32,071 bases of DNA from Acholeplasmataceae bacterium (GTDB lineage Bacteria > Bacillota_I > Bacilli_A > ML615J-28 > CAG-313), in NCBI GenBank assembly GCA_012838945.1, contig DUOG01000013.1:1-32071 (forward strand), in the 5' to 3' direction. Below, piece after piece: positions 8,183 to 32,071 of the stretch. A model generated the notes under the pieces. The model was not told the DNA's origin, ran no database searches, and was given only the letters and a program-made list of their open reading frames with translations. Position 1 is the stretch's first letter, and each line of letters opens with the position of its first letter. The position numbers and the translations under genes are program-made.

Positions 8183-8196
8183 ATGGAAGTGAAACC

Positions 8197-11242: not shown

Positions 11243-12136
11243 ATGGATATATATGATAGCCATGCTGATATCTTTTATGATTTATGGCAAAAACACCTTC
11301 AAGGTATAACTGATCCCTTTGGAAAATACCACTTAGAAAACCTCACCAAAGGTGGCGTTAAGGGTGGTATATGGGTGGTTTATTCCGATGAAGATTTTGA
11401 TGTTTTAGAAGCTTATCGAATTGCCTTAGAAGAATATGCCCCTTACCGAGATCGGTTTGATGTCATCTATGGCTTAGAAGGACTAAGAAATGTTAAAGAT
11501 TTAGCAGCATTTGATCATTTATATCAAATGGGCATTCGCCATGCTATGCTCACTTGGAATGAGGCGAATCATTTAGCTACTGGTGTTTTGGGTAACCCAA
11601 ATCGCGGACTAACCCCGGAAGGGAAAGAATTCTTGCATTACATGGAAACAAAAAAGATGATTGTTGACCTTTCTCATTTAAATGAAAAGAGTTTTTATGA
11701 GGTTCTAGCAACTACTAATAAAAATATCATTGCCTCTCATTCCAATGCATATCGGTTATGTCCTCATCTACGCAATCTTACTGATGAACAAATGAAAGCG
11801 ATTGCTGAGGTGGACGGGGTGATTGGGGTAGTGGCGGCTCGTAATTTTGTGTCATTCAACCGGGATTTACAAAACGTCAAGGGTTTAGTTGATCACATTG
11901 ATTATATCTCCAATTTGATTGGTGTAGAACATGTGATGTTAGGATTAGACTTTATGAATTACTTAGGTAACTATAACAATTCTAATCTTGATGATTTAAA
12001 AAATGCTTCTGATTTATCTGTTTTAATAAAAGAAATGGAGATTAGGGGTTATCACAAAGAAGAAATTGAAGCAATTTGTTATAAAAATTATATAAAGGTA
12101 AAGGAGAAGGTTTATGAAAAAAGTACTAGTAATTAG
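11243..12136 (+). CDS. membrane dipeptidase (peptidase family M19)
   Basis: Zinc-dependent dipeptidase related to renal dipeptidase; bacterial members hydrolyse dipeptides, often with a D-residue at the C-terminal position. Metal ligands visible in order: His and Asp in 'DSHADIF' (residues 6-10), the bridging Glu in 'YGLEGLRN', His in 'DLSHLN', and His in 'ASHSNAYRLCPHLRNLTDEQ'. The last stretch is the family hallmark. The 297-residue length is at the short end of the family. No signal peptide, so cytosolic despite the family name. Start ATG 11243 has GGAGA upstream. Its 3' end overlaps the next gene by 23 bases. Beside a glycan hydrolase it fits digestion of dipeptides from murein stems (inference). 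Confidence 0.92.
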   Translation: MDIYDSHADIFYDLWQKHLQGITDPFGKYHLENLTKGGVKGGIWVVYSDEDFDVLEAYRIALEEYAPYRDRFDVIYGLEGLRNVKDLAAFDHLYQMGIRHAMLTWNEANHLATGVLGNPNRGLTPEGKEFLHYMETKKMIVDLSHLNEKSFYEVLATTNKNIIASHSNAYRLCPHLRNLTDEQMKAIAEVDGVIGVVAARNFVSFNRDLQNVKGLVDHIDYISNLIGVEHVMLGLDFMNYLGNYNNSNLDDLKNASDLSVLIKEMEIRGYHKEEIEAICYKNYIKVKEKVYEKSTSN

Positions 12137-14426: not shown

Positions 14427-14429
14427 TAA

Positions 14430-15936: not shown

Positions 15937-17787
15937 ATGTATCAAATTATTCCCTATGTAAAAGAGAAAGTATACCTTGATGGTAAAATCAAAATATCAG
16001 AGATCAAAACCTTCTTTTGTGACCCTCTTTTACTAGAAATAGCTCCTGAAGTTCAAAAGATCTTTCCTCAAATTACCCTAATAAATGATTTAGAAAAAGC
16101 AGATATCATCATAAGTTTAGAAGCATTTGCGAAAGAAGAGTACAAGATCGAAATTGATAATAATAAAATTTTGATTAAAGCGGGCTTTCTTAACGGATGC
16201 TTTTATGCATTAATGACCTTAAAGCAAATTATTGCTCAAGTAGATGATGAAGTGTATAACTTAGTTATTCACGACTTTCCATCACTCGCAATTCGGGGCT
16301 TTATGATGGATATCTCACGTAACAAGGTTCCTAAACTCGAAACGCTAAAAGCGTTTGTCGATAAGATGGCGGAACTTAAGTACAACCATTTTGAACTATA
16401 TGTTGAAGGCTTTTCCTTTGAATATCGTAGCTTTAAAAACTATTTAGAAGAAGAAGGATATATTACCGTTGAAGAGTATATTGAACTAGAAAAATATTGT
16501 GCGAGTAAAATGATTGATCTTGTTCCAAATCAAAATGGACTTGGCCATATGACTGATTGGTTACAACATGATGAGTTTAAAGATTTGGCTGAAAGTCCAG
16601 ATGGTTTCTTTATTTGGGGAGCTCATCGAGCACCAAGTACTCTTAATGTCACTGATGAGAGAAGTATCAAACATGTCAAGCGCATGTATGATGATATGTT
16701 ACCTTACAGTAATTCACCTTATTTTAATATGAACTTTGACGAACCGTATGAACTAGGTGAAGGTAAAAGTAAAGAATATTGTGAGAAACACGGAAAAGAA
16801 AAGGCGTTTATTGATTATTTAAATACACTATATCAACATGTAAAGCAATACGAAAAAACTGGTTTGATCTGGGGTGACTTTTTGCTAAAGCATCCTCAAA
16901 CCTTAAAACAACTTCCTGAAGATTTAATCTTCATTGATTGGGGTTATCACAAATCTTATCCGTTTGATGAGCATCTTAAGATGTTAGCCGAACTTAAGAT
17001 TCCTTTTATGGCGGCACCGGGAACAAGTACCTGGTCATCAATTACTGGAAAGATTGATGATATGATGATGACTGTTAAAAACAGTACCACGCACACAAAA
17101 TTAAATCACGGATTAGGAGTCTTAATGACTGACTGGGGCGATATGGGCCATCTTCAATATCTGCCTGTTAGTTATCCAGGTTTAGTTTATGCGGCTAGCG
17201 GTATGTGGGGGGAACTCCCAGCAACCGAAAAAGAAGTAATTGCCTATCTTGATCAGGCAATCTTTCAAGATGAAGCACAGATAATAGGACGTTTATTATT
17301 TGAATTGGGTCGTTATGACCGCTTAGAAGGTATCTATCGTGATTATGGAACTAAAACTTTCTCGGTAATCTTATGGGCCGATTTGACCCAAAATGAATCG
17401 GATCCACTTAATGCCTTTATCGATAAGATGAAATCAAATCTTATTGATGAAAATCACTATACAAAGCTAGTAGAACACTCAGATCATTGGGAACAAGAAT
17501 TAGCGGAAGCCCAACCAAAGTGTGCTGATGCTGAGTTGATTTTAAAGGAAATTAAGTATAGTATTCGCTTACTAAGGTTACTATGGAAAGCCAATCGTGC
17601 CTTTGATCAATCACTTGATCAAGATCGTCGAGAAACCTTCATTGACGAATCAATTAAAGGTTTAGCTGAGCATCGTGACCTTCATTTGGAGGCTTGGGAT
17701 GCTAGAAATAAACATGGAGGATTTGATAAGAGTTATGGCCGTTTAGCCAACCTTATCAAAGTTTTAGAGAAATGGCGTCAACAATAA
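15937..17787 (+). CDS. GH20-type beta-N-acetylhexosaminidase, cytosolic
   Basis: GH20 enzymes release terminal GlcNAc or GalNAc by substrate-assisted catalysis with an Asp-Glu pair. Seen: an N-terminal GH20b-like alpha/beta domain (residues about 1-115) ending 'VIHDFPSLAIRGFMMDISRNKVP', then the barrel with 'KMAELKYNHFELYVEGFSFEY', 'LVPNQNGLGHM', and the catalytic pair in 'FNMNFDEPYELGEGKS' (Asp-Glu about 268-269). A helical C-terminal region (about 470-616) follows. No signal peptide, so it would act on imported oligosaccharides. Start ATG 15937 has GAGGTGAA. It is the first gene after the regulated promoter. Sequence context departs from the classic 'GGDE', so specificity could differ from chitobiose-type GH20 enzymes. 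Confidence 0.82.
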   Translation: MYQIIPYVKEKVYLDGKIKISEIKTFFCDPLLLEIAPEVQKIFPQITLINDLEKADIIISLEAFAKEEYKIEIDNNKILIKAGFLNGCFYALMTLKQIIAQVDDEVYNLVIHDFPSLAIRGFMMDISRNKVPKLETLKAFVDKMAELKYNHFELYVEGFSFEYRSFKNYLEEEGYITVEEYIELEKYCASKMIDLVPNQNGLGHMTDWLQHDEFKDLAESPDGFFIWGAHRAPSTLNVTDERSIKHVKRMYDDMLPYSNSPYFNMNFDEPYELGEGKSKEYCEKHGKEKAFIDYLNTLYQHVKQYEKTGLIWGDFLLKHPQTLKQLPEDLIFIDWGYHKSYPFDEHLKMLAELKIPFMAAPGTSTWSSITGKIDDMMMTVKNSTTHTKLNHGLGVLMTDWGDMGHLQYLPVSYPGLVYAASGMWGELPATEKEVIAYLDQAIFQDEAQIIGRLLFELGRYDRLEGIYRDYGTKTFSVILWADLTQNESDPLNAFIDKMKSNLIDENHYTKLVEHSDHWEQELAEAQPKCADAELILKEIKYSIRLLRLLWKANRAFDQSLDQDRRETFIDESIKGLAEHRDLHLEAWDARNKHGGFDKSYGRLANLIKVLEKWRQQ

Positions 17788-17890: not shown

Positions 17891-20863
17891 ATGAAAAAAT
17901 TATATTCTGCGATAATTTTGATGGCGATACTTGCGGTTGTAACAAGCTTTTTTCCAAAAGAAGTAAAAGCAACAACTTCATCGTATCGTCAAAATCCATA
18001 TGCATATAAAACATTGTCTAATACTAGCGATGAAATTTTGCCATATGAGGATTATCTTCAAGCTTATACTCAAGCGTTTCCAAACAAAGAAGTTGTTATT
18101 AATGCTTGGGATTTAGCAGGCCACAATGTTACCGTAAATGAAGATGAAGATAATGTTAAATTATCTGATTTAAAAATAGTGGAACACGATGGTCAAAAGG
18201 GTTTATTTACTCCTGAAAGAGGAACTGTTAATTGGTCCTTTGAAGTTGAAGAAGAAGGATATTATCATATTGTTTTAAAATATTATCCAACAACTGAACA
18301 AGGAAAGAGTTCTTCAATCGAACGAAGTCTTCAAATAAAAAATGAAATTCCTTTTGTTGGTGCTGATACATTTGTTTTCTATCGTGTTTGGGGAAATCGT
18401 GACAACGAAATCGCCCGCGACGTTAACGATAATGATATTAAGCCAAAGCAAGTTGAAAAACCAGCTTGGCAAGAAGTATATCTAGTTGATGATATGGGTT
18501 ATATTAGTGATCCTTACTTATTCTATTTTGAAAAAGGAACTAATACCATTAGCTTTCAAGCCATTAAAGAACCTTTAGTAATTGACACTATTAAATTGGT
18601 TCCAAAATTAGATATCATTGATTATAACGAATATAAAACAGTGGTGGCTGGAAAAGAAAATAAAGTTCCAGAAAAAACTCAAATTAGAATCGAAGCAGAA
18701 AATGCAGTATACAAATCTTCTCCAACCCTTTATCCAATAAGTGACCGTGCAAGTATGTTAACCGAACCTTATGATGCATCAAAGATTCGTTTAAATACCA
18801 TTGGCGGTACTAACTGGAAGATCCCTGGTGATAAGATTACTTGGGAATTTGATGTTGACCATGCCGGCTATTACAATATTTCAATGCGTGCCAAACAAAA
18901 TCAAGTGCGCGGAATGTATTCGAGCCGAAAAGTTTATATTGATGGTGAAATCTTATTTGAAGAATTAAATGACACTAACTTCAGATATAACAATAGATGG
19001 CAAAACGTTACTTTAGGTAATGAAGATGGTGCCTTTCTATTCTACTTTGAACCAGGTTCTCACACCATCACAATGGAAGTTACTCTAGGTAAGTATGGGA
19101 CTTTAATTCAACAAACTGAAGCAGTTATTGATGAATTAGGATCACTTTATCGTGACATTATTCGCTTTACTAGTGTTAACCCTGACCCGGGTCGTGACTA
19201 CCAACTTACTAGACAAATCCCTAACCTATTAGAACGTTTTGAAAAAGCAAGTGCAGAGTTAAAGTTTATCTCTAGTGAGATAGCTCGTATCTCTGGTGGT
19301 AAGAGTGATAAGACTGGTGTTATTGACAGTGTAGTTGTTCAATTAGATGACTTAATTAAAAAACACCGTTCAATCCCAACTCGTTTACTCCAATTAAACA
19401 ATAATATTTCTTCTCTAGGTAACTTATTGATTCTATTACGAGAATTACCATTAACTATTGACTATATCTTGATCCATACTCCAGATGTTAAATTGCCACG
19501 CGCTAATGAAAACTTCTTTGAAAGAATATGGAATGGTATTGTTCAATTCTGGAATTCATTCTTCAATGACTATTCAGCAATCTCTAAAACAGTAGGTGCT
19601 GAAGAACGAACTAGTATTGAAGTTTGGATGACAATGGGACGTGACCAAGCCAACGTGCTTCGTCAACTCATTGACGAAAGTTTTACCCCTGATACAAATA
19701 TTGGGGTTGACTTAAAACTCGTAAGTGGTGATGTTCTCTTAAGAGCAACCTTAGCTGGTATTGGACCAGACGTTGCGATTAACGTTGATAGTACCTTACC
19801 GGTAAACTATGCACTACGTAAAGCTGTTTATGATATTAGTCAGTTCCCTGACTATCATGATTTTGTTGGAACTTATCTTCCATATGAAGAAAAGCAGTTC
19901 CATCCTAGTGCTTTAGAACCGTTTACTTTTAATGGTGGTGTTTATGCATTACCGGAAAAACAAACATTCTTAATGATGTATGTTCGTGATGACATTGTTG
20001 CTGATCTAGGACTTAAAGTTCCAAAGACATGGCTAGAAATCATTGAGATTATTCCTGACTTACAAGCTAATCAATTACAGTTCTACCTACCAGTAAACGA
20101 AGCTGGAGCATCAGCATTGAACCCAATCTTTGTTTCTATGCTCTATCAAAATGGTGGAGAACTATATATAAACGATGGTAAAGAAACTGGTTTATTAAGT
20201 AAAGAAGCAATGGACACGTTTGAATTCTGGACTGAATTCTATACCCTCTATTCCTTCCCTAAATCAGCTAACTTTATTAACCGTTTCCGTACTGGTGAAA
20301 TGCCAATGGGTATTGCTTATTATGAAGCATATAACACATTAAGTGTTTTCGCTCCTGAGTTACGTGGTAAATGGTCATTCCACCCAATCCCTGGAACTGA
20401 GAGAGTTGATGAACATGGTAATGTATATATCGATAATACTGCTACTACCATTGGTTCAGGTGTTGTTATGTTAAGACAACCAGCAGAAAAATCTGAACAA
20501 GTACGTAATGATTCATGGGAATTTATGAAGTGGTGGACAAGTACTGAAACTCAAGTTCAATTTGGACGTGAGATGGAAGGTATCTTAGGCCCAGCCGCTC
20601 GTCATAATACCGCAAATAAATTAGCTCTTGAACAATTAGCTTGGCCAGCCAAAGACCAAAGAGCGTTGATTGAACAACAATATAACATTAAATCAATTCC
20701 GCAAGTTGCTGGTAGTTATATTGTTGGACGTGAAGTAGAAAATGCTTTCCGTCGTGTTATCAATGATTTGGCCAATGCACGCGAAACCCTTTATGAATAC
20801 TCGCTTTCAATTAATCGTGAAATTGATCGTAAACGTAAAGAGTTCGACTTACCACTAGCTTAA
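17891..20863 (+). CDS. oversized extracellular solute-binding protein (family 1) with beta-sandwich domains
   Basis: Substrate receptor of a carbohydrate ABC importer, about twice the usual size (990 residues). Seen in order: signal peptide 'MKKLYSAIILMAILAVVTSFFPKEVKA'; two carbohydrate-binding-like beta-sandwich segments, about 60-230 and 260-410 (the second begins 'IRIEAENAVYKSS', typical of CBM6/35-like folds, and both contain 'WEFDV/WSFEV' and 'FYFE' strands); a helical linker about 430-560; and a solute-binding domain about 575-960 with 'WMTMGRDQANVLRQLIDESF', 'GPDVAINV', 'FNGGVYALPEKQTFLMMYVRDDI' and 'GSGVVMLR'. There is no lipobox Cys and no C-terminal membrane segment, so how it stays at the membrane is unclear. 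The track start at 17792 is rejected; ATG 17891 has GAGGTGA. Permeases follow after 18 bases. Confidence 0.85.
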   Translation: MKKLYSAIILMAILAVVTSFFPKEVKATTSSYRQNPYAYKTLSNTSDEILPYEDYLQAYTQAFPNKEVVINAWDLAGHNVTVNEDEDNVKLSDLKIVEHDGQKGLFTPERGTVNWSFEVEEEGYYHIVLKYYPTTEQGKSSSIERSLQIKNEIPFVGADTFVFYRVWGNRDNEIARDVNDNDIKPKQVEKPAWQEVYLVDDMGYISDPYLFYFEKGTNTISFQAIKEPLVIDTIKLVPKLDIIDYNEYKTVVAGKENKVPEKTQIRIEAENAVYKSSPTLYPISDRASMLTEPYDASKIRLNTIGGTNWKIPGDKITWEFDVDHAGYYNISMRAKQNQVRGMYSSRKVYIDGEILFEELNDTNFRYNNRWQNVTLGNEDGAFLFYFEPGSHTITMEVTLGKYGTLIQQTEAVIDELGSLYRDIIRFTSVNPDPGRDYQLTRQIPNLLERFEKASAELKFISSEIARISGGKSDKTGVIDSVVVQLDDLIKKHRSIPTRLLQLNNNISSLGNLLILLRELPLTIDYILIHTPDVKLPRANENFFERIWNGIVQFWNSFFNDYSAISKTVGAEERTSIEVWMTMGRDQANVLRQLIDESFTPDTNIGVDLKLVSGDVLLRATLAGIGPDVAINVDSTLPVNYALRKAVYDISQFPDYHDFVGTYLPYEEKQFHPSALEPFTFNGGVYALPEKQTFLMMYVRDDIVADLGLKVPKTWLEIIEIIPDLQANQLQFYLPVNEAGASALNPIFVSMLYQNGGELYINDGKETGLLSKEAMDTFEFWTEFYTLYSFPKSANFINRFRTGEMPMGIAYYEAYNTLSVFAPELRGKWSFHPIPGTERVDEHGNVYIDNTATTIGSGVVMLRQPAEKSEQVRNDSWEFMKWWTSTETQVQFGREMEGILGPAARHNTANKLALEQLAWPAKDQRALIEQQYNIKSIPQVAGSYIVGREVENAFRRVINDLANARETLYEYSLSINREIDRKRKEFDLPLA

Positions 20864-20881: not shown

Positions 20882-22105
20882 ATGCAACGAAATAAAAAGA
20901 AAAAACTAACTAAAGAAGAAAAAATCGCCCTCCGCGCGGCTATAAAAGCCAAGAAAGCTCAGTGGCGAGAAGAAGATAAGTTATTTGATCAAGAAACAAG
21001 AGAACGGCTTGAAGATATTAAAAAAGAGCTTGCTGAAAGCAAACTTGTAAAAGCCGAATTTCTTAAAAAGTTAAAAGAAGATCCAAAAAATCAAGAACTT
21101 AAGGAAGAGTATATTGAGTTCAATAAAAAGCATGAACATATTCTTCAACGTTATCGAATCGAGAAAAACCGTCTTTCACTAGGTTATAAATTAGACCGCT
21201 TTAGTAAAAGAGGTGGAAGACTTCGAAGAGAGTTATATATCAACCGCCAATACTATTATTTAGTGGCACCATATACATTCTTATTCTTAGTCTTCACGGT
21301 TATTCCGGTTATAATGTCACTTATCATTAGTTTTACCTACTTCAACTTGTTGGAATTACCACGCTTTGTTGCTTGGGAAAACTATATGAGATTGTTTATT
21401 GATGACAAGATATTTGTTATCGCAGTTCGAAACACATTAATCTTAGCGGTTATTACTGGACCAATATCATATATTGCTGCCTTCGTCTTTGCCTGGCTAA
21501 TTAATGAATTGCGTCCAAAGTTAAGAGCCTTTATGACTCTTATCTTCTATGCCCCATCAATTTCTGGGAACGTGTATCTAGTTTGGAAGTTAATCTTCTC
21601 TAGTGACATCTATGGGTATGCAAATGCCTTTCTCATAAAATGGGGGTTCATTAATGAACCAATAACCTGGCTGCAGGAGCCTAAGTATATCCTAGCAATC
21701 GTTATTGTTGTTCAATTATGGCTCTCACTTGGGGTAAGCTTCCTGGCCTTCATTGCCGGATTGCAAAATGTTAATAGGGAACTTTATGAAGCGGGTGCCG
21801 TTGACGGTATCAAAAATAGATGGCAAGAACTATGGTATATTACTTTACCACAAATGAAATCACAATTAATGTTCGGGGCCGTTATGCAAATTACATCGAG
21901 TTTATCGATTGCGGAAGTTACGACCAATATTGCTGGGTTCCCGTCAATCGAGTATTCAGCCCATACGATAATCAACCACTTGACGGACTATGGTACGCTG
22001 CGACTTGAGATGGGTTACGCTTCGGCGATTGCGACGATCCTATTCATTGTTATGATTGTGGCTAACGTTCTTGTTCGTAAAATTCTTAGAAGGGTAGGTA
22101 ATTAA
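20882..22105 (+). CDS. carbohydrate ABC transporter permease 1 (MalF/UgpA type)
   Basis: Inner-membrane subunit of a CUT1-type sugar importer. The transmembrane part begins near residue 125 ('YYYLVAPYTFLFLVFTVIPVIMSLIISF') and has six predicted helices. The ATPase-coupling EAA loop is 'ELYEAGAVDGIKNRWQELWYITLPQMK'. Unusual: the first 120 or so residues are a highly charged, helical, probably coiled-coil cytosolic extension ('LTKEEKIALRAAIKAKKAQWREED'). Length 407, against about 300 for typical members. AAGGAGGAG lies 11 bases before ATG 20882. It forms a pair with the next gene. No ATPase gene is in the window; a shared MsmX/UgpC-like ATPase elsewhere is expected. Confidence 0.9.
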   Translation: MQRNKKKKLTKEEKIALRAAIKAKKAQWREEDKLFDQETRERLEDIKKELAESKLVKAEFLKKLKEDPKNQELKEEYIEFNKKHEHILQRYRIEKNRLSLGYKLDRFSKRGGRLRRELYINRQYYYLVAPYTFLFLVFTVIPVIMSLIISFTYFNLLELPRFVAWENYMRLFIDDKIFVIAVRNTLILAVITGPISYIAAFVFAWLINELRPKLRAFMTLIFYAPSISGNVYLVWKLIFSSDIYGYANAFLIKWGFINEPITWLQEPKYILAIVIVVQLWLSLGVSFLAFIAGLQNVNRELYEAGAVDGIKNRWQELWYITLPQMKSQLMFGAVMQITSSLSIAEVTTNIAGFPSIEYSAHTIINHLTDYGTLRLEMGYASAIATILFIVMIVANVLVRKILRRVGN

Positions 22106-22107
22106 TT

Positions 22108-23133
22108 ATGGCAAAAGAAGCTATTAGAGTTGATGATGATCAACTGGCTGGTGCCCCCCTTTCGAAAGAGGAACAGAGGATTATTAAGCGCCAACAGCGC
22201 AAACTAAGAAAGTTTAATATTGTTGATGAAAGCCAATTAAAAGGCTTATCAAAATTTATTTATAATTACAAGAAAAAGCGTCGTATTAAAAGACGTAAAC
22301 GAGTTAGTCGAAGCTTTGCTGGTGACATGGGGCTCTTCTTGGTATTACTTCTCTTTGGAGCCTTTAGTGCTTACCCATTAATTTACTCGATTACTGCTGC
22401 TTTTAAACCGCTTAATGAATTGTTCCTTTATCCTCCGCGACTCTTTCCACAACAATATGTTATGGATAACTTTATTGACCTAGCGAGTTTAATGGAACAA
22501 TCCTGGGTGCCATTCTCTCGATATTTCTTTAACACCATCTTTATTACCTTAACGGGAACAGTTGGACACGTTATTATCGCGTCAATGGCAGCTTATCCAC
22601 TTGCTAAGCATAATTTCTTAGGTAAAAAATTAATATTCTCATTAGTTGTTTACTCGTTGATGTTTGCTCCACAGGTAACAGCAACCCCAAGTTATATTAT
22701 GTTTAGTACTTTAGGGCTAATTGATAGTCAATGGGCAATTATCTTACCAGCCTTTGCCTATACTTTAGGGCTCTACTTGATGAAACAATTTATGGATACG
22801 ATTCCAATGGAACTCATTGAATCGGCCAAGATAGATGGTGCCAGTGAATTTAAGATATATTGGAAGGTTATCATGCCGATTGTTAAACCGGCTTGGTTGA
22901 CCTTAATTATCTTGTTATTCCAACGCTTATGGAATACGGATGGTGGTGTTTACATTTATAGTGAACAATTAAAACCGGTTAGTTATGCGCTACATCAAAT
23001 TATTGCTCAAGGTGTTGCTCGAGCAGGTACAGCTTCGGCGGTACTCTTAATTATGATGGTTGTGCCAATTACCGTCTTCATCCTATCTCAAAGCCAAATT
23101 ATCGAAACGATGGCCCATTCTGGTATGAAGTAG
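22108..23133 (+). CDS. carbohydrate ABC transporter permease 2 (MalG type)
   Basis: Second permease of the first pair. About 70 N-terminal residues are cytosolic and very basic ('YKKKRRIKRRKRVSRS'), then come six predicted helices from 'DMGLFLVLLLFGAFSAYPLIYSITAAFKP', a MalG-type start. EAA loop: 'ELIESAKIDGASEFKIYWKVIMPIVKP'. Length 341 against about 280 for typical members, the excess being the N-terminal extension. It starts two bases after the first permease stops, so both are made in equal amounts. 'AAFKPLNELFLYPP' is the usual region after helix 1 in CUT1 MalG-type proteins. Confidence 0.9.
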   Translation: MAKEAIRVDDDQLAGAPLSKEEQRIIKRQQRKLRKFNIVDESQLKGLSKFIYNYKKKRRIKRRKRVSRSFAGDMGLFLVLLLFGAFSAYPLIYSITAAFKPLNELFLYPPRLFPQQYVMDNFIDLASLMEQSWVPFSRYFFNTIFITLTGTVGHVIIASMAAYPLAKHNFLGKKLIFSLVVYSLMFAPQVTATPSYIMFSTLGLIDSQWAIILPAFAYTLGLYLMKQFMDTIPMELIESAKIDGASEFKIYWKVIMPIVKPAWLTLIILLFQRLWNTDGGVYIYSEQLKPVSYALHQIIAQGVARAGTASAVLLIMMVVPITVFILSQSQIIETMAHSGMK

Positions 23134-23146: not shown

Positions 23147-24931
23147 ATGAAATACAAAAAATATTTAATATTATTGGTTGTATCATTTGCTTTGGTTATC
23201 TTTACTTCAACAACCAAAGTAAGTGCCGCAAGTTATAATTATGACTATTGGCATAACATCGTCTATTCATCAGAAGGTTTATCTCATAAAGACACTTTCT
23301 ATGATCAAGACATTCTTAATCCTAATGGAACAACACCTGTTGATGCTAATGGAAACCAATTGGTGAAGTTCAACACTTTAGAAGATATGGCAGTTTACGG
23401 CGAAAGAATTTATGTTCTCGACGCCAAGACCAGAGACAGTAAAACTTTAACCTTTGGTGGTGACCCTACAAGTGTTGATGGTGCTAGTACCGTTTATGTC
23501 TTAGATAAATCATTTAACTATGTCGGCCAACAATCAGTTTTTGCCATCACAAAAAGTGCTAAAGCGCAGTTAGAACGCTTCTACACTTATTTTGATGAAG
23601 AAAAGGGCGAAACAGTTCGCGTTTATGAAACTGAAAATGCCAAAAATAATTATCAAGATCGCGTCTATATCCCTTATCCTGATGGATTTACGCCTAAAAC
23701 AAAATCGGGATTAGATCTTGCGGAAAATACAGCTGTTATCTTAAGAAATGCAAGAGGTATTACGGTAACTAAAGATGCTTTATATATTGCCGATACCGGC
23801 CATTACCGCATTTTTAAATTAGATAAAGATACTTATACTGTAACTGGTGTATACCTTACACCAAATGATGAAACTTTCAGAAATCCATGGGTGTTCTCAG
23901 AAGCATCTGATGGTAAGCAATTATTCTATCCGATCAAATTAGCGATTGACGTCGCTAACCGGGTTTACTGTGTTGCTGATCGTATTTATGAAGGTATCCT
24001 TGAGTTTAATGACAATGGTGAGTTCAACCGTTTCTTAGGGGTTAATAAGGTTGTACCTAACCCGCTAAAAGCATTCTGGACTAAAATTATGACTGAAACT
24101 CAAATTGCTCAAATTGCTTTGGACTTACCACCGATGTTCACTAATCTTTCGATTGATAAAAAAGGATTCTTATACACAACTTCTAAACCAAGTGATAACA
24201 CTCAAGCAACAAATTTGATCAAAGCAATTAACACTTCTGGTAAAGACGTTTTAAAACGAAATGGTTACACTGAGCCAAGTGGAGATGCTGTTTATATTGG
24301 AGCTTCCACGAACCCTCAAATACCAATCGGACCATCATCATTGAATGCTATTACAGTTAGTGATAATGGTATTTATACGGCTGTTGATACTAAACGAGGT
24401 CGAATGTTTACTTATGATAATGAAGGAAATCTACTCTATATCACTGGTGAAAAAGGTACTTTATCGCATAACCTTAATGAACCAGTAGCTATTAGATATT
24501 TAGGAAATGACATTGTTGTAGTTGACCGCGAATCACGCAGTTTAATTAGATTCCAAGTAACTAAATTTGGTTCTTTGATTAATGAAGCAACTGAACTTTA
24601 TAATCAAGGTCTTGTCATTGAAGCTGAATCAATTTGGCGCGAAGTTCTAAAAATGAATTCTAACTATGAGTTAGCTTATGTTGGAATTGGTAAGAGTCTC
24701 CTTCGTCAAGGAAAATACAAGGAAGCTATGGAAAACTTCAAAATGGGTAATAACAAAACATATTATTCTAAAGCCTTCCAAGGTTATCGAGATGAATTCT
24801 TAGAAGAAAACTTCGGTATTATCATGACTTCATTAGTAGCAATTGTTGTTGCTTATGGTGCTTATAAAGGCTATAAGTACATAAAACGTCGCAACGAAGA
24901 AGATTATGAAGGAGGCGACGAAAATGCTTAA
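23147..24931 (+). CDS. secreted NHL-like beta-propeller with TPR and C-terminal membrane anchor
   Basis: No described enzyme family recognised. Signal peptide 'MKYKKYLILLVVSFALVIFTSTTKVSAAS'; then repeated NHL/propeller-like blades, for example 'EDMAVYGERIYVLDAKTRDS', 'RGITVTKDALYIADTGHYRIFKLDKDT', 'LNEPVAIRYLGNDIVVVDRESRSLIRFQV' (to about residue 475); a tetratricopeptide pair about 484-545 ('EAESIWREVLKMNSNYELAYVGIGKSLLRQGKYKEAMENF'); and one membrane helix near 558-580 followed by a short charged tail. So most of it is outside the cell. Propeller plus TPR suggests binding of glycan and partner proteins; this is inference. Start ATG 23147 behind GGAGG. It overlaps the Yip1 gene by 8 bases. 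It lies between two permease pairs, suggesting a structural part of the uptake machine. Confidence 0.78.
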   Translation: MKYKKYLILLVVSFALVIFTSTTKVSAASYNYDYWHNIVYSSEGLSHKDTFYDQDILNPNGTTPVDANGNQLVKFNTLEDMAVYGERIYVLDAKTRDSKTLTFGGDPTSVDGASTVYVLDKSFNYVGQQSVFAITKSAKAQLERFYTYFDEEKGETVRVYETENAKNNYQDRVYIPYPDGFTPKTKSGLDLAENTAVILRNARGITVTKDALYIADTGHYRIFKLDKDTYTVTGVYLTPNDETFRNPWVFSEASDGKQLFYPIKLAIDVANRVYCVADRIYEGILEFNDNGEFNRFLGVNKVVPNPLKAFWTKIMTETQIAQIALDLPPMFTNLSIDKKGFLYTTSKPSDNTQATNLIKAINTSGKDVLKRNGYTEPSGDAVYIGASTNPQIPIGPSSLNAITVSDNGIYTAVDTKRGRMFTYDNEGNLLYITGEKGTLSHNLNEPVAIRYLGNDIVVVDRESRSLIRFQVTKFGSLINEATELYNQGLVIEAESIWREVLKMNSNYELAYVGIGKSLLRQGKYKEAMENFKMGNNKTYYSKAFQGYRDEFLEENFGIIMTSLVAIVVAYGAYKGYKYIKRRNEEDYEGGDENA

Positions 24932-25559
24932 AAAGATCTATAATGATTGCGTAAAATTTCCTACTTATATCTTGACGCATCCGTTCAAAGGATATAATTT
25001 GTTCAAGGAAGAAAAGCAAGGAAAAATGAGCGTTGCTATCACCTTCTTAGTAATCATTGCGCTCTTAAATATAATTAACTATCGCTATTTAGGATTTATT
25101 ATTAATAATAACAATCCTCGAGCATTTAATAGTTTATTAATCATTGTTTACTCAATTGTTCCTGTTGTTTTATTAAGTGTAGCTAACTGGAGTGTTACCA
25201 CCCTTATGGATGGTAAAGGTAAGATGAAAGAAATCTTTATGATGGTTTGTTATTCTTACTTTCCTGTTATCATTACCGGAATTATTACATTAGTCCTAAG
25301 TCAAGTTGTTATTGAAGATGAAATTCAATTCTTATCATTACTTAATGGTGTTGGTTATTTCTTAATGGCCTATATGATCTTTATGGGATTAATCAGTATT
25401 CATGAGTATGGACTATTCAAGACAATTGCGACTATTGTAGTTACAGGTGTTGCTGCATGTATTATCTTGTTCGTCGGATTATTGATATTTGACTTATCAC
25501 AACAAATTTACGGATTCTTGTTCTCGCTCTATCGCGAGGTCAAAACAAGGTTCTTCTAG
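24924..25559 (+). CDS. Yip1-family membrane protein
   Basis: Integral membrane protein of 211 residues with about five predicted helices. The N-terminal 'FPTYILTHPFKGYNLFKEEKQGKMSVA' and central 'NWSVTTLMDGKGKMKEIFMMVCYSYFPVI' are typical of bacterial YIP1-like proteins. No catalytic motif is seen and the function of bacterial members is unknown. The track starts at ATG 24906, but the ribosome binding site GAAGGAGG (24909-24916) follows that codon, so ATG 24924 is the start. It overlaps the propeller gene by 8 bases, indicating coupled translation. I suspect a membrane scaffold for the neighbouring propeller or permeases (inference). Confidence 0.8.
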   Translation: MLKKIYNDCVKFPTYILTHPFKGYNLFKEEKQGKMSVAITFLVIIALLNIINYRYLGFIINNNNPRAFNSLLIIVYSIVPVVLLSVANWSVTTLMDGKGKMKEIFMMVCYSYFPVIITGIITLVLSQVVIEDEIQFLSLLNGVGYFLMAYMIFMGLISIHEYGLFKTIATIVVTGVAACIILFVGLLIFDLSQQIYGFLFSLYREVKTRFF

Positions 25560-25571: not shown

Positions 25572-28349
25572 ATGACATTGAAATGGCCAAAATTTTTGAC
25601 ATTTAAAAGAACTTTACTAATTACATTGTTGTTAATCCTCTTAATTGTTGGGTTAGTCTTTGTATTAGGTGGATATAAACCAGCAAAACCGGTTTTAAGT
25701 GCGAAAGATTTCTCTTTCGAGGGTTTTACTGAGTTTAAGAGTTTTACTGAACAAGACAAACAAGTTCAAACTGTAACAAGTGAAAATGGACGCTTTGTCT
25801 TCAAGTTTGATCCAGTAACAACTTATTTCTCGATTGAAGATAAAGTAACTGGACACACTTGGTATTCTAATCCGACTGAAGAGGATGAGTTTGAAACTAA
25901 CAAAGGGACAGTTGAATCTCAAAAATCAACATTGATTCTTGAATATATTACTCCAGTTGGTGGGACAAATACATTTGCTAATTACACTTACAGTATTTAT
26001 GACTTTAATGAAGAACAAACTGAAGGTGGATATAATTTAGATCTTGCCCCAACTTTCTCAGTAAAATATGAAGGAAATAAGGTTACTGTTTTATACGAAT
26101 TAGTTAAAAAAGGTATCGACTACACTTTCTTCCCTGCTCGAATATCACAGGAACGTTTAGAGCATTTTATTGCTGAAAACAAACGAATGGTAGAAGAAGG
26201 GGTTCCGGGTGTTGTCGAATTAGATAACCGTGACCTTAACCGTTTAAAGATCATTTATTATGAATTAGATGAAAAGACTGAGCCAGATCGACCTTTCTAT
26301 AAGTTAAAGAAGGCTCATGAAAATATGAGTGGATTAGAGATTCAAAACCTCTATCGAATCTTATATGTTAACTGTGGTTATACTCGTGAAGATGCTGCTT
26401 ATGATAATGCGATGTATGGTGTCTCCATTAACATGGACCGTCCACACTTTAGTATCGCAATTGAATATGAAGTTTCAAACGAAGGATTAAAGGTTACTGT
26501 ACCAGCAAAATCAATTATTGAACGTGGTAGCCAAAAAATCGGTAAAGTAAAAATATTACCATACTTCACTACAGCTAAAAGAGGAACTGAAGGATATATG
26601 GTTATTCCTGATGGTTCTGGAGCAGTAATGAATTTTGACAATGACAAATTAGCCTATGGTGGATTTGGTAAACGTGTTTATGGTAGAGATACATCATATT
26701 ATGATGAGATCAAACCAGTTCCAACAGAAGATGTTTTACTACCGATGTATGGCTTAGTTAACAAAACAGCTGATACAGGAGTTGTTGTTACCGCAGATAA
26801 TGGTGCAACAATGTTAAATCTTTATGCGGATATTAGTGGTCGTATTGACTCGTATAACCGTATCAGTTATGAAGCGTTCTTGCGCGAAGCTCAAACCGTT
26901 TGGATTGGACTTGGTGCAGCCGCAAAACCACACGTTAAGTGGACAGAAGAACGCTTATTAAATGACGTAGAATTGAACTATCATTTCTTAGAAGCTAAAG
27001 ATAACAACTATAACGATATGGCTAAGTTCTATCGTCGTTATCTCGGATTAGAAGACAATGATAAGACTACATCTACTGTCTTAAATCTTGAGTTAATTGG
27101 TAGTTATGACTATGATACCAACTTCTTAGGTATTGGTTATACTGCTTATGATTCTCTCACTACTTATAAACAAGCAATGGAAATCATTGAAGAAATGAGA
27201 GGTCACGGAGCAGAATACATTAATGTCCTCTATCGAGGATGGCAAGAAGATGGACTCACCAATCCAAGCATTTCTAAGTTAAGCCTCAGCAAAGTGATTG
27301 GTGGTAAAAAAGGATTGAAGGAATTTGTTGAATACACTAAAAATAATAATATTAACTTCTATCCATATTTAAGTTTCAGTGAATTTACATCTTTTAATGA
27401 ATCATTCGGAAGACAACATTATTCATCAAGAACTGTTGGAAATGACTTCTCATATCGTTATCCATACAATCCATCCTTCGGTATCTTTGACATGAATCTT
27501 GATGAAATAATGGTAGTATCACCAAAATACTACACTACTTTCATGAGCAAATTCATTAAAGAATTCAATAAAAAAGTTGGAATTAATTCCGTAGCATTTG
27601 AATTCTTAGGCTCAAGCCTTGGTGGCGACTATAAGAAACGCCAATTATTCTATAAGGAATCAGCAATGATTGAACAAATTCAATCATTACAAATGGCAAA
27701 AGAAAACGGGATCGATAATATTAATCTATTTACTCCATATCAATACGCCCTTCCTTATGTATCAAATGCTTTAGAAGTTCCTTATACATCAACCTCTTAT
27801 GAAATCTTAGACTACTCAATTCCATTCTATCAATTAGTGGTTTCTGGAAGCTTTGACTATAGTGGTATGAGTTACAATGCTAATGACGAAAAAGGTATGA
27901 TGTATCACCTAATGAGAATGTTGGAAACAGGATCAAATGTTCAATTCACTTTCTCATATGAGGATTCAGCAAAACTTATTCAAACTAAATATAACAATTA
28001 TTATTACACCCAATATTCTAAATGGTTAAGTGAAGTTGATTTCTTAGTTAATAGCCTTAATGAATTGAAAATCCATGAAGGTGTATTGGTTCAACATGAG
28101 CAATTAGCTAATGACATCTTTAGAGTAAAATACAGCAATGGTATTGAATTCATCCTTAACTATACCGAACGGGTACTTAATAATAATTTAAGTTCATATG
28201 GCGTTGTTCGTGGAAACCTTATTGAGCGAATCGATTTAGGTTTAGGATTAGAAAAAGAAGTCTATGAACGAGCTGAAATTATCAACAATATCGTTGATGG
28301 TAATATTAAAAATCAAATTATTATTTATAGAAGTGGAGGCGCGAGATAA
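25572..28349 (+). CDS. membrane-anchored DUF5696-type protein, possible TIM-barrel glycosidase
   Basis: A 925-residue protein with one N-terminal membrane helix ('TFKRTLLITLLLILLIVGLVFVLGG') and the rest outside. Residues about 60-470 look beta-rich ('NGRFVFKFDPVTTYFSIEDKVTGHTWYSNP', 'GYMVIPDGSGAVMNF' near 343). Residues about 500-800 look like an alpha/beta barrel ('GAEYINVLYRGWQEDGLTNP', 'NNINFYPYLSF', 'INSVAFEFLGSSLGGDY', 'GIDNINLFTPYQYAL'); a small beta domain ends it. The PDGSGA motif and size match proteins I recall as DUF5696, found beside sugar ABC transporters in Paenibacillus-like bacteria. Beta-sandwich, barrel, beta-domain order is like several glycoside hydrolase clans, so an unassigned glycosidase is possible. 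ATG 25572 has GGGAGG. Its stop overlaps the next ATG (TAATG). Confidence 0.65.
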   Translation: MTLKWPKFLTFKRTLLITLLLILLIVGLVFVLGGYKPAKPVLSAKDFSFEGFTEFKSFTEQDKQVQTVTSENGRFVFKFDPVTTYFSIEDKVTGHTWYSNPTEEDEFETNKGTVESQKSTLILEYITPVGGTNTFANYTYSIYDFNEEQTEGGYNLDLAPTFSVKYEGNKVTVLYELVKKGIDYTFFPARISQERLEHFIAENKRMVEEGVPGVVELDNRDLNRLKIIYYELDEKTEPDRPFYKLKKAHENMSGLEIQNLYRILYVNCGYTREDAAYDNAMYGVSINMDRPHFSIAIEYEVSNEGLKVTVPAKSIIERGSQKIGKVKILPYFTTAKRGTEGYMVIPDGSGAVMNFDNDKLAYGGFGKRVYGRDTSYYDEIKPVPTEDVLLPMYGLVNKTADTGVVVTADNGATMLNLYADISGRIDSYNRISYEAFLREAQTVWIGLGAAAKPHVKWTEERLLNDVELNYHFLEAKDNNYNDMAKFYRRYLGLEDNDKTTSTVLNLELIGSYDYDTNFLGIGYTAYDSLTTYKQAMEIIEEMRGHGAEYINVLYRGWQEDGLTNPSISKLSLSKVIGGKKGLKEFVEYTKNNNINFYPYLSFSEFTSFNESFGRQHYSSRTVGNDFSYRYPYNPSFGIFDMNLDEIMVVSPKYYTTFMSKFIKEFNKKVGINSVAFEFLGSSLGGDYKKRQLFYKESAMIEQIQSLQMAKENGIDNINLFTPYQYALPYVSNALEVPYTSTSYEILDYSIPFYQLVVSGSFDYSGMSYNANDEKGMMYHLMRMLETGSNVQFTFSYEDSAKLIQTKYNNYYYTQYSKWLSEVDFLVNSLNELKIHEGVLVQHEQLANDIFRVKYSNGIEFILNYTERVLNNNLSSYGVVRGNLIERIDLGLGLEKEVYERAEIINNIVDGNIKNQIIIYRSGGAR

Positions 28350-29509
28350 TGGATAACAATAATGTTCCTGAAAAAGTTTCTTTTTCCGAGAAACTAAAAA
28401 ATGCTTTATTGAGTCTTCTTTCAACAATCTTACTCGCGCTTAAGAAATTCTTTACGCTTCCCTTCTTTGTTAAGGTTGGAAAAGTAATTGCATGGCCGTT
28501 TGTTAAGGTATGGCCTTATATCAAATGGTTCTTACATAAAATTAGTTTTCCATTTAGATGGTTGAAAAAGAAAACTTATAATAATCTTTCCCATCAAGGG
28601 AAAAAGGTTGTTTGGTCATTTATCTTCTTATCACCAGTAATTATCGGATTCTTATTGTTCTTTATTTATCCGTTAATTATGTCAGCCATTTACTCAATTA
28701 GTCAATTTAGACCATTGCCTGAGGGTGGCTTTGACATCGTCATCGGTGAGTTTATTAAAGAAAATGGTGATGGAACAACTACGGTTATTAAAGATTTATT
28801 CTATAACTTTAAGGTTGCTTTACAAGAAAATAGACACTTCCCCGTTGAACTAGTAAACACTATTAAGAACACCGTAATTGATGTATTCGTTATCACAATC
28901 TTTAGTTTGTTGGTTGCGGTTATGTTAAATGGTGAGTTTAAAGGTCGGGGAATTGTGCGCGCTATTTTCTTCCTTCCTGTTATCTTTAACTCGGAAGCCA
29001 TTACTCAAGCATTGTCAAAATATCAGCATGTTGATGCTCTTCTCAACCAAATGGGAAGTGGGGCCTTGACTGCAGTATTTAACCTAGAGATGTTCTTGAT
29101 TAATGCCGGGATTCCGAATACGTTGATAACGTTCTTGACAAGTATTACAACAGCAATCTATCGTACGATATCATATTCGGGTATTCAAATCTTGATTTTC
29201 CTTGCTGCTATCCAATCAGTTCCGGGCCATCTTTACGAGGCAGCAACTATTGAGGGAGCAACTCAATATGAGTCATTCTGGAAGATTACCCTTCCGATGG
29301 TTTCCCCAATGATCATGACTGTTGTCGTGTTTACAGTGGTCGACAGCTTCATGCGTTCACCAATTAATACTGTTATCAATACGACCTTCAACCAGTCAAA
29401 CTATGGTCTGAATGCAGCCATGAACTGGATCTACATGGGGGCAACCATTATATTACTAGTAATCTTTATTGGCCTATTGTCAAAGGTGGTGTTCTATTAT
29501 GACGAATAA
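28349..29509 (+). CDS. carbohydrate ABC transporter permease 3 (MalF/UgpA type)
   Basis: First permease of the second pair, 386 residues. A roughly 85-residue N-terminal region has aromatic amphipathic stretches ('FFVKVGKVIAWPFVKVWPYIKWFLHKISFPFRWLKKK') that could lie along the membrane surface. The core starts 'VVWSFIFLSPVIIGFLLFFIYPLIMSAIYSISQF', typical of MalF-like CUT1 permeases. EAA loop: 'HLYEAATIEGATQYESFWKITLPMVSP'. A periplasmic-side insertion around 'IKENGDGTTTVIKDLFYNF' follows helix 1. It shares one base with the upstream stop codon (TAATG) and overlaps the next permease by 11 bases. It differs clearly from permease 1, so it is not a recent duplicate. Confidence 0.9.
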   Translation: MDNNNVPEKVSFSEKLKNALLSLLSTILLALKKFFTLPFFVKVGKVIAWPFVKVWPYIKWFLHKISFPFRWLKKKTYNNLSHQGKKVVWSFIFLSPVIIGFLLFFIYPLIMSAIYSISQFRPLPEGGFDIVIGEFIKENGDGTTTVIKDLFYNFKVALQENRHFPVELVNTIKNTVIDVFVITIFSLLVAVMLNGEFKGRGIVRAIFFLPVIFNSEAITQALSKYQHVDALLNQMGSGALTAVFNLEMFLINAGIPNTLITFLTSITTAIYRTISYSGIQILIFLAAIQSVPGHLYEAATIEGATQYESFWKITLPMVSPMIMTVVVFTVVDSFMRSPINTVINTTFNQSNYGLNAAMNWIYMGATIILLVIFIGLLSKVVFYYDE

Positions 29510-30584
29510 GACGGAAAAGAAATTGGCAAGAAAAGAACGGATAGAAGAACTAAAAGCTCAGGCCATCGAAACTTATGAAAAAATCAGAGCGGATTTAAAA
29601 AATCCGGTTCGAAAGGCAGTTCGAGCTCGTAAGGTCTCACTTGCTTCTTCGAGATTGATTCGTTTTGTAGTTATCTTTGGTTTATCGTTCGTTATTATAT
29701 TCCCACTATTCCAACAATTAACTTTAGCTCTTAGACATCCTAATGATATCAATGATCCACTGATTGTTTGGATTCCTGAAACATTCTCGTTCTTGAACTT
29801 TAAGATTGCGGGGACAATGTTAAACTATTGGAGGGCTTTGTGGAATAACATTAAAGTTTCATCCATAGTTATGGTGCTTCAAATTGCATCAACTGCTTTA
29901 GCAGGATATGCTTTCTCTAAGTTAAGATTTAAGGGTAGTGAAGTCCTCTTTTGGATCGTTATGATTACATTAATCGTTCCTCCACAAACCTTAGCGATAC
30001 CGAAATTAGTATTCTTTAATAACTTTGACATCTTTGGTATTATCAAGCTAATTAAAGGAAGTGGCCTAAAATTAACCGGTGTTGGTAAAACATCTTCCTT
30101 CTACATTATGGCCGCAACCGGTCAAGGTATCAGAGCAGCACTATTCATTTATCTATTCAAACAATTCTTCCGGGGCTTACCGGTTGAACTTGATGAATCA
30201 GCTCAAATCGACGGTGCTGGCGTATTTAGAACATTCTGGAGTGTAATGCTTCCAAATGCTCGTGGGGTTATGATTACTGTTGGGCTTTTTGCCTTTGTGT
30301 GGCAGTGGAATGACGTTTACTTTACGCGCCTCTTTGAGGTCAGTGATACGGCTTATCCACTACTGACAGCGCAATTATCCCAAATCACTGAACGTTTACC
30401 GCACTATTTGAAGACCTATGGAATGGATTCCTTAGTATCAGAAGACTTGCGGGGGAATGATTACTTCGTTTCACTCATATCTCATACAGCAGCGTTCTTG
30501 ATGATGTTACCGCTCTTAATCGGATATCTATTTGTTCAAAGACACTTTGTTGAAGGTATTGAACGAACAGGTATTGTTGGTTAA
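29499..30584 (+). CDS. carbohydrate ABC transporter permease 4 (MalG type)
   Basis: Second permease of the second pair, 361 residues from ATG 29499. The track's start at 29469 (TTG) lies deep in the previous gene and is rejected; AGGTGG lies upstream of 29499. The first 55 or so residues are charged and helical ('TNKTEKKLARKERIEELKAQAIETYEKIRADL'). Six predicted helices follow from 'LIRFVVIFGLSFVIIFPLFQQLTLALRHP'. EAA loop: 'ELDESAQIDGAGVFRTFWSVMLPNARG'. It overlaps permease 3 by 11 bases, a translational coupling that fits a 1:1 heterodimer. No ATPase or second binding protein follows in the window. Confidence 0.9.
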   Translation: MTNKTEKKLARKERIEELKAQAIETYEKIRADLKNPVRKAVRARKVSLASSRLIRFVVIFGLSFVIIFPLFQQLTLALRHPNDINDPLIVWIPETFSFLNFKIAGTMLNYWRALWNNIKVSSIVMVLQIASTALAGYAFSKLRFKGSEVLFWIVMITLIVPPQTLAIPKLVFFNNFDIFGIIKLIKGSGLKLTGVGKTSSFYIMAATGQGIRAALFIYLFKQFFRGLPVELDESAQIDGAGVFRTFWSVMLPNARGVMITVGLFAFVWQWNDVYFTRLFEVSDTAYPLLTAQLSQITERLPHYLKTYGMDSLVSEDLRGNDYFVSLISHTAAFLMMLPLLIGYLFVQRHFVEGIERTGIVG

Positions 30585-30660: not shown

Positions 30661-31281
30661 ATGGATTCACGAAAACTAACAAACAGCAAAGTTTATCAAG
30701 TGTTTGACTTTATAATGCGTTTAATTCTGTTGAATCTATTAGCACTTACCTTTTCTTTTCCGATTATTACCTTTCTTACAAGTTTAGTCGCAACTCATGA
30801 TGTAATTAAGCAATACATCAATGATGGAAGCACCGTTGTTTTCCGCCCATTTTGGGAGTCGTTTAAAAGAAACTTCTTTAAGACAGTAATTTTACAAATA
30901 GGTATTATTGTTGCAGGTTTTCTGTTGGGTAACAGTTTATTGTTCTTTTACAATCATACCGTTGATGGCGGAATATATGCATTTGGGTTTTATTTAACAA
31001 TGTTAATTATATTGGTGCTTTTCATCATCTTAGTCAATTATCCTTTGACTTGTGTATACTTTAAGGGTTTAAAAGCAACACACTATCTCAAACTTTCAGC
31101 ATTATTTGCTTTTAAAGATTTGTCAATTAGTTTAATTGATGCTATAATATATGTAGGCTTTGCTTTATTAGGCTTTATTGCCTTTCCTGTATTAATCTTT
31201 GGGGGAATAAGTGTTCCGGTTTATTTGATTGTAAAGATAAGTCGGAAGCACTATTACCATATATCAAAAAATTATGAATAA
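30661..31281 (+). CDS. YesL/DUF624-family membrane protein
   Basis: A 206-residue membrane protein with about five hydrophobic segments. The N-terminus 'VYQVFDFIMRLILLNLLALTFSFPIITFLTSLVATHDVIKQYI' followed by 'FRPFWESFKRNFFKTVILQIG' is the DUF624/YesL pattern. Members commonly sit next to CUT1 sugar permeases in Bacillota; their function is not established, and a role in assembly or regulation of the transporter has been suggested only from context. Start ATG 30661 has AAAGGT ten bases upstream, a weak site. The gene is followed after 21 bases by the secreted phosphodiester glycosidase. Confidence 0.85.
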   Translation: MDSRKLTNSKVYQVFDFIMRLILLNLLALTFSFPIITFLTSLVATHDVIKQYINDGSTVVFRPFWESFKRNFFKTVILQIGIIVAGFLLGNSLLFFYNHTVDGGIYAFGFYLTMLIILVLFIILVNYPLTCVYFKGLKATHYLKLSALFAFKDLSISLIDAIIYVGFALLGFIAFPVLIFGGISVPVYLIVKISRKHYYHISKNYE

Positions 31282-31302: not shown

Positions 31303-32071
31303 ATGAATTTTAAAAAGTTCTTTGGCTTTTTATTATGTTTGCTAGCAGTGGTTCTTTTTGGTGCTACACAAGTGAAAGCGGTTGCACCAAGTTCCCAAAT
31401 AGTAGAAAATGTTTCTACCCAAGTGTTGAACTTACCTGAAGGTGTTGAATTCCATATTCGTAAGGATAAAACAGCTCAAAATGGTGACATTACAGCAGCA
31501 AAACGTGATCAAAACGTTCAAGCAATCGTTGTTCCAAAAGCAGCAGAAACTGTTGAACTAGTTGTTTGGGCCGCTGGTGACGATCACAAGTGGGGCCGCG
31601 CCACTTTACGTTCATCAATTGTTGACTTTGAAAGAAGAAACCCAGGCTATCGCGTTATCGCTGGGGTAAATGGTGACTTCTTTGATATTAGTGATACTTT
31701 CCAACCTAGTAGTGCCCACGTAAGTGCTGGTGACGTTTGGAAAAAAGATAACCGTCCATATAAAACGTTGGGTATTTTCCCAGACAAATCTTACATCATT
31801 GGTCAAATGACAACTAATAACTACTTGAGTCTTAAGACTGTTGAAGGACGAATCGTTACTTCAGAATTCAAAATTGACGTTGAAAACAAATTACCTACAG
31901 GTAATGAAGTTGCATTATTCTTCCCAGGTTCTGCTCAAAAACTAAATGTAGCTGGATATAACGTTTATAAAGGAAACTATGATATTTATCGTGTTTCTAA
32001 AGACATGGGTTATGTAACCCCTAAACCTTTAGGAAAATTCCTTAAAGGTGAGATTGTTGAAAAATCATCTA
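31303..32071 (+). CDS. secreted phosphodiester glycosidase (NAGPA-domain) protein, partial
   Basis: Missing from the ORF track because it has no stop within the window; about 256 codons are visible and the gene runs off the end. It starts at ATG 31303 with AAGGAGGAG 10 bases upstream. Signal peptide 'MNFKKFFGFLLCLLAVVLFGATQVKA'. The segment 'RNPGYRVIAGVNGDFFDI' is the hallmark of the phosphodiester glycosidase domain (PF09992), named after human NAGPA, which cleaves GlcNAc-1-phosphodiesters. 'AHVSAGDVWKK' and 'TLGIFPDKSYIIG' fit the following strands. Bacterial members occur in exopolysaccharide and cell-wall contexts. Here it could remove GlcNAc linked by a phosphodiester from teichoic-acid-like or wall-linked glycans (inference). 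Further domains or an anchor may lie beyond the edge. Confidence 0.85.
   Translation, partial: MNFKKFFGFLLCLLAVVLFGATQVKAVAPSSQIVENVSTQVLNLPEGVEFHIRKDKTAQNGDITAAKRDQNVQAIVVPKAAETVELVVWAAGDDHKWGRATLRSSIVDFERRNPGYRVIAGVNGDFFDISDTFQPSSAHVSAGDVWKKDNRPYKTLGIFPDKSYIIGQMTTNNYLSLKTVEGRIVTSEFKIDVENKLPTGNEVALFFPGSAQKLNVAGYNVYKGNYDIYRVSKDMGYVTPKPLGKFLKGEIVEKSS

Follow-up and report, generated by a model that had tools for sequence, protein, structure and literature searches.

The importer cassette around the DUF5696 gene

The window, that is, the whole 32,071-nucleotide stretch of DNA analysed, carries a cassette of eight genes in the order SBP-P1-P2-NHL/TPR-Yip1-DUF5696-P3-P4 (Table 1). The first-pass annotation had located the DUF5696 gene between the parts of an importer, and a binding protein gene (17891-20863) and permease genes (20882-23133 and 28349-30584) were indeed found around it. 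The EAA (ATPase-coupling) motif is kept in all four permeases; no ATPase is encoded in the cassette, and the genome holds a single OB_MalK (MalK/MsmX-type) ATPase. An oligosaccharide-type binding protein, EAA-motif permeases and a MalK-type ATPase encoded elsewhere are also the features of CUT1 ABC importers that share an MsmX/MsmK ATPase. CUT1 importers have one permease pair, whereas this cassette has two (P1/P2 and P3/P4), conserved across loci, together with fixed NHL/TPR, Yip1 and DUF5696 components.

In the AlphaFold2 model of the binding protein (pLDDT 86.7), a pair of beta-sandwich domains at the N-terminus is followed by a helical segment and, C-terminally, by an oligosaccharide-binding fold; Foldseek matched the model to MalE3 and other sugar-binding proteins. 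With its approximately 990 aa this protein is more than twice the usual size, and across lineages it is far more conserved than DUF5696. The NHL/TPR protein has an N-terminal signal (residues 1-19) and a C-terminal membrane segment (551-569). The accessory DUF624/MusI-family gene that follows the cassette was present in 11 of 81 loci, the window included.

Table 1 Features of the locus, with window positions and the evidence for each.
Feature	Positions	Strand	Description and evidence
GH20 beta-hexosaminidase	15937..17787	+	Variable accessory enzyme; GH20 E 1.7e-13; catalytic DE kept (NMNFDEP, D268-E269)
Cassette gene 1, solute-binding protein (SBP)	17891..20863	+	990 aa from ATG 17891; SBP_bac_8 E 3.8e-17; AlphaFold2; Foldseek
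Cassette gene 2, permease P1	20882..22105	+	BPD_transp_1; family consensus retains the coupling-helix motif
Cassette gene 3, permease P2	22108..23133	+	BPD_transp_1; EAA-type motif
Cassette gene 4, NHL-repeat and TPR protein	23147..24931	+	NHL E 2.6e-7; TPR weak
Cassette gene 5, Yip1-domain membrane protein	24906..25559	+	Yip1 E 3.2e-14
DUF5696 protein gene	25572..28349	+	925 aa; membrane-anchored GH129-like barrel protein; Pfam PF18952 E 9.7e-142; AlphaFold2 model; PDB fold matches
DUF5696 N-terminal membrane helix	25593..25667	+	Residues 8-32, basic N-terminus before; AlphaFold2; hydropathy segment 15-33
DUF5696 beta-sandwich region	25770..26990	+	Residues ~67-473; invariant motif GY-x-x-x-PDGSG; AlphaFold2
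DUF5696 (beta/alpha)8 barrel	27078..28067	+	Residues 503-832; AlphaFold2; Foldseek 5opq; hhalign to GH129
DUF5696 codons 677-678 (Glu-Phe of FEFLGSS)	27600..27605	+	Strand-4 end, GH129 nucleophile position; alignments, register uncertain by one residue
DUF5696 codon 720 (Phe)	27729..27731	+	Strand-5 end, GH129 acid/base Glu position, no acid; alignments
DUF5696 codon 747 (Asp)	27810..27812	+	In the strand 6-helix 6 loop; conserved acid specific to DUF5696; alignments
DUF5696 codon 769 (Asn)	27876..27878	+	Invariant, loop after strand 7; alignments
DUF5696 C-terminal beta domain	28086..28328	+	Residues 839-919, beta strands; AlphaFold2
Cassette gene 7, permease P3	28349..29509	+	BPD_transp_1 E 1.4e-5, just below Pfam cut-off; EAA motif
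Cassette gene 8, permease P4	29469..30584	+	BPD_transp_1 E 7.3e-11; EAA motif
DUF624/MusI-family membrane protein	30661..31281	+	Accessory; DUF624 E 1.8e-9; MusI_fam E 3.4e-16, below cut-off

Fold of the DUF5696 protein and its relatives

The DUF5696 ORF starts with an ATG directly preceded by AGGGAGG, a strong ribosome-binding site; promoter and terminator scans revealed nothing beyond chance level. PF18952 (DUF5696) was the sole Pfam match of the encoded protein (residues 273-868; 474 bits, the curated cut-off being 25.6) and covered positions 2-599 of the 612 in the profile. An AlphaFold2 model built from 61 aligned orthologues (mean pLDDT 87.3, pTM 0.86) bore out the domain order proposed from the sequence, namely an N-terminal helix, a beta-sandwich, an alpha/beta barrel and a C-terminal beta domain. 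Barrel strands 1 to 8 span residues 503-509, 549-555, 595-600, 673-676, 716-720, 732-734, 762-764 and 789-795. Hydropathy revealed a single membrane segment; by the positive-inside rule, this one helix and its basic N-terminus point to a type II anchor that would leave the barrel outside. Within the beta-sandwich, D347 (in the GY-x-x-x-PDGSG motif) and D373 were each kept in 81 of 81 orthologues.

The barrel had been predicted to be of a retaining-glycosidase type, and Foldseek, hhalign and a profile search of the PDB agreed in placing it nearest to GH129 and then to GH101. The best Foldseek match was the GH129-like 3,6-anhydro-D-galactosidase 5opq/8rzk (E 1.7e-30; TM-score by target 0.69 for 5opq), followed by GH129 NagBb (5wzn, E 1.5e-23) and by GH101 structures (E approximately 1e-14 to 1e-17). 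Fold comparison with GH31, GH66 and GH101 had been suggested: GH31 and GH36 matched more weakly than GH129 and GH101 (E 3e-13 for GH36) and GH66 was absent from the 50 best PDB matches, which rules out GH31 or GH66 as the nearest fold. Using the DUF5696 profile, hmmsearch against PDB sequences recovered ZgGH129 (E 4e-11), collinear over the N-domain, barrel and C-domain, and NagBb (2e-5). Profile-profile alignment by hhalign to four GH129 proteins gave an E-value of 6.5e-15 over 491 columns, and in the reciprocal search the GH129 profile recovered the window gene (E 1.8e-5). These four proteins (L032-L035) were assigned to GH129 through one of them, L033, which matches NagBb 5wzn with an E-value of 3e-146 and shares 41-62% identity with the others.

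DUF5696 thus shares its three-domain architecture and barrel with GH129 NagBb (5WZN) and ZGAL_3152/DagB (5OPQ, 8RZK), its best structural and profile relatives. Unlike them, it is membrane-anchored and has neither the strand-5 Glu (E478 in NagBb) nor the metal ligands, and the strand-4 Asp (D435 in NagBb, D486 in ZGAL_3152) is not retained across the family. The GH101 enzymes EngBF and SpGH101 have a similar barrel, but their catalytic D764/E796 are not conserved in DUF5696. Profile and sequence comparison thus make DUF5696 a homologue of GH129, whereas its catalytic positions keep it out of that family.

Neither PF11308 (Glyco_hydro_129, at E<=1) nor PF12905 (GH101) matched the window protein; the PF11308 scan of the phylum, the window's genome included, gave no match anywhere and is hence uninformative. 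Weak matches of the DUF5696 profile in cassette-less genomes were, in the sample inspected, GH13 alpha-amylases (L036, L037) or the true GH129 proteins, and not DUF5696. The GH13 matches fit the description of the GH101 barrel as alpha-amylase-like (PMC8106489). The true GH129 enzymes, a family formerly named GHL1 (PMC5765458), occur in a few genomes of Bacilli, never within a cassette of this kind, and are probably intracellular; Pfam labels all four as DUF5696, with better E-values than for GH129. A single-sequence search of viral contigs with the DUF5696 protein detected no relative, and we found no mention of DUF5696 in the open literature (subscription journals lay outside the search).

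Catalytic positions in the DUF5696 family

From the alignment and established knowledge of NagBb, we take E478 to be the strand-5 partner of its D435. D435 is the strand-4 catalytic residue (PMC5698469), and equivalents of D435 and E478 were present in all four GH129 rows. The corresponding positions were scored in 120 DUF5696 genes, and individual residues in the set of operon-linked orthologues (n=81). Two peptides, FEFLGSS and YRGWQED, had been proposed to contain catalytic acids at strand ends. Both exist and do lie at such ends (residues 676-682, strand 4, and 554-560, strand 2), but their conservation does not support catalysis in the form proposed. Of the 81 operon-linked orthologues, 1 has Glu at the position of E559 and 15 have an acid at that of D560; as neither residue of YRGWQED is conserved, both are rejected as catalytic. 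E677 of FEFLGSS does occupy the nucleophile position, yet no more than 4 of the 81 have Glu there, and 2 have Asp.

At the strand-5 position (719-722) an acid was found in 25 of 120 genes, and acids at both canonical positions in just 18. Strand-5 acidity is thus at the background of the barrel (17-20%, the median of all barrel positions being 17.5%), whereas strand 4 lies well above it. On a family tree of 112 rows, computed without the columns of these catalytic positions, the minimum number of state changes was 19 for strand 4, 14 for strand 5, 9 for the pair and 3 for 747/748. So low and flickering a canonical pair indicates that selection has not maintained the canonical retaining mechanism. 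The GH129 metal ligands (His/Asp residues mutated to Ala in 5wzq) are not kept in the window protein, where L553, R555 and Y599 align with H300, D302 and H346 of L033, and family members seldom, if at all, retain them. Of the membrane-bound glycosidase that had been proposed, the fold and the membrane anchor thus stand, and a conserved acidic pair at the canonical positions does not.

The absence of a conserved acidic pair had been named in advance as the outcome that would speak against a glycosidase. No such pair occurs at the canonical positions; another one, formed by 677/678 and 747/748, is present in 88 of 120 genes, which leaves some probability, albeit a low one, for a glycosidase. DUF5696 might accordingly be an active enzyme with a relocated acid/base, with E677 (or an acid at 678) as the nucleophile and D747 as the acid/base, which would trim oligosaccharides at the membrane just ahead of uptake. 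Such an arrangement would resemble clan GH-D (GH27/31/36), in which strands 4 and 6 each end in an Asp, and GH36 structures were among the Foldseek matches mentioned above. A strand-4 acid at 677/678 is found in 91 of 120 genes (76%, against the 17.5% median), and the span at 677 ranks 8th in acidity among 329. At 747/748, where the GH129 rows have Gly, 116 of 120 genes have an acid, so that an active pair deserves weight. There is also the precedent of ZGAL_3152, a GH129-like enzyme with catalytic acids other than those of NagBb (PMC5698469). Against this, D747 lies 13 residues beyond strand 6 in the model and not at its end, the strand-4 state changed at least those 19 times, and 29 of 120 genes have no strand-4 acid at all, among them the nearest of the relatives compared (L050, 43% identical), which has Lys-Asn there in an intact cassette. 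We therefore regard a relocated active pair as unlikely, albeit the most serious of the alternatives.

Outside these positions, N769 was found in 80 of the 80 orthologues with a residue there and in all 40 copies sampled at class level (see below). Together with G556, G561, G680, D747, Y815 and W818, it is one of the conserved barrel residues that sit in catalytic-face loops. At the end of strand 3 (residues 598-600, window 27363-27371) the window protein has Pro-Tyr-Leu, and 74 of 120 relatives have an acid.

Linkage of DUF5696 to the cassette across genomes

Wherever the contig reached far enough, the cassette order was intact in each of 80 loci compared. Since these 80 were the best-scoring matches of a scan of the whole collection, 40 further copies were drawn from class-level genomes regardless of context; all of them, some very divergent, were in the cassette, that of L185 being truncated by the contig end. 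Hosts included Paenibacillus, Cohnella, relatives of Acholeplasma and Izemoplasma, Clostridia and Treponema. The NHL protein was detected in 67 of 198 genomes, every one of which also has DUF5696, itself present in 68 genomes when the four GH129 cases are not counted. The four true GH129 genes, which come from the same class, served as a control: in contrast to DUF5696, they had no neighbour corresponding to any of the seven other cassette genes. The obligate place of this gene in a single importer cassette is thus the main point, and one that the first-pass annotation had missed.

Some components are fused. The NHL/TPR and Yip1 proteins form one polypeptide of approximately 660-700 aa (approximately 1000 aa in L174) in more than 25 loci, including L148-L188, L076, L093 and L105, and P3 and P4 one of 615-630 aa in L166, L178, L179 and L180, where the DUF5696 copies have approximately 722 aa. 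These fusions suggest that NHL/TPR and Yip1, and likewise P3 and P4, are physical partners. We found no paper on the NHL/Yip1/permease combination in the open literature.

Proposed role of DUF5696

A constant cassette and the missing conserved catalytic residues make a part of the importer likelier than an ordinary enzyme. We consider it probable that DUF5696 descends from a GH129/GH101-type glycosidase and was recruited as a fixed, mostly non-catalytic subunit of an unusual carbohydrate ABC importer. The subunit reading is based on genetic linkage and the gene fusions, and the linkage is compatible as well with an extracellular enzyme that belongs to a fixed pathway. The barrel would stand at the external surface of the membrane, in a complex with the permeases, the NHL/TPR protein and the Yip1 protein, and its pocket (W557, N769, D747) may hold or orient the end of an oligosaccharide and hand it over to the binding protein and permeases; alternatively, it may serve to stabilise the complex. 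One MalK/MsmX-type ATPase encoded elsewhere would probably drive all four permeases. In the literature searched, a four-permease ABC importer with DUF5696 as a probable pseudo-glycosidase subunit is without description.

A more specific proposal, which we advance tentatively and by analogy, is that DUF5696 could be the equivalent in bacteria of SLC3 heavy chains, with a catalytically dead GH129-type barrel acting as a structural and glycan-receiving subunit, with one large binding protein serving two coupled permease pairs and the NHL/TPR propeller and the Yip1 membrane protein as further fixed parts. 4F2hc and rBAT are single-pass proteins whose alpha-amylase-family ectodomains serve amino-acid transporters, and 4F2hc has lost its catalytic residues (PMC8537225). 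The likeness, a single-pass protein with a large extracellular glycosidase-family barrel that serves a transporter, is not membership, as 4F2hc and rBAT are eukaryotic GH13-family proteins with SLC7 amino-acid transporters as partners.

How far the barrel still handles sugar bears on a further possibility, that it binds none and serves solely to stabilise the permease complex or to set its spacing. Stability and trafficking are the main concerns of 4F2hc and rBAT (PMC8537225), and DUF5696 is the least conserved component, with a median pairwise identity of 0.29, compared with 0.43 for the binding protein and 0.60 for P1/P2. Such low conservation would fit a loosely constrained scaffold as well as a part that faces varied glycans. 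The many conserved barrel residues in catalytic-face loops argue against a pure scaffold, although the density of invariant positions is no higher there (8%) than in the bottom loops (9% of 22), and conservation taken loop by loop gave no clear separation of a binding from a scaffold role. We judge a pure scaffold improbable. Least credible, and in our estimate quite improbable, is a mixed family with a common transport role, in which some lineages (e.g. Paenibacillus, with a strand-4 Asp and a strand-5 Glu) would have enzymes and others, the window's included, pseudoenzymes: the 18 two-acid members, such as L063 (SLRDLG and LMEGGN), show no different cassette, the family as a whole scarcely ever has the metal ligands, and with strand 5 at background their two acids may co-occur by chance.

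If the favoured reading of DUF5696 as an importer subunit is true, a family whose sole annotation is DUF5696, distributed over Paenibacillus, Mollicutes-related gut bacteria, Clostridia and Treponema, would gain a fold, an origin and a role, and bacteria would have an example of their own in which a glycosidase became a subunit of a transporter. The eight-gene importer, widespread and equipped with two permease pairs, would likewise be recognised as one machine, on which one could test concretely if ABC importers can couple a single binding protein to two pairs of permeases.

Accessory enzymes and likely cargo

The real enzymes that adjoin the cassette differ from locus to locus. Upstream of it in the window (7229-9486, 11243-15689 and 15937-17787) lie genes suggesting murein or amino-sugar salvage, which encode an S66 LD-carboxypeptidase, a PLP-dependent Orn/DAP/Arg decarboxylase, an M19 dipeptidase, two GHL10 proteins and the GH20 enzyme. 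One of the GHL10 proteins matches Cwp19 (E 8e-70), a protein with peptidoglycan hydrolase activity (PMC5765458). Genes for NamZ (exo-muramidase) and GH3 adjoin the cassette in seven loci of Acholeplasma/Izemoplasma-type genomes (L052, L053, L054, L056, L058, L060 and L065), downstream of P4 and DUF624; the 68 flanking genes gave 7 NamZ and 7 GH3 matches, and four genes were checked individually. Cultured members of these groups mostly lack a wall, and the presence of such enzymes at their cassettes hints at scavenging of the peptidoglycan of other bacteria. Other enzymes, e.g. GH30, are found at Paenibacillus loci, and GH26 occurs commonly in the flanks sampled; the cargo thus seems to differ between lineages. 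For the window, the neighbouring genes indicate that the cargo is probably an amino-sugar glycan, e.g. a peptidoglycan fragment.

A further gene (31303-32071) is cut by the end of the window. Its homologues lie in tandem downstream in L050 and L051, and the first copy in L050 (16318-20233) is a Pfam NAGPA phosphodiester glycosidase.
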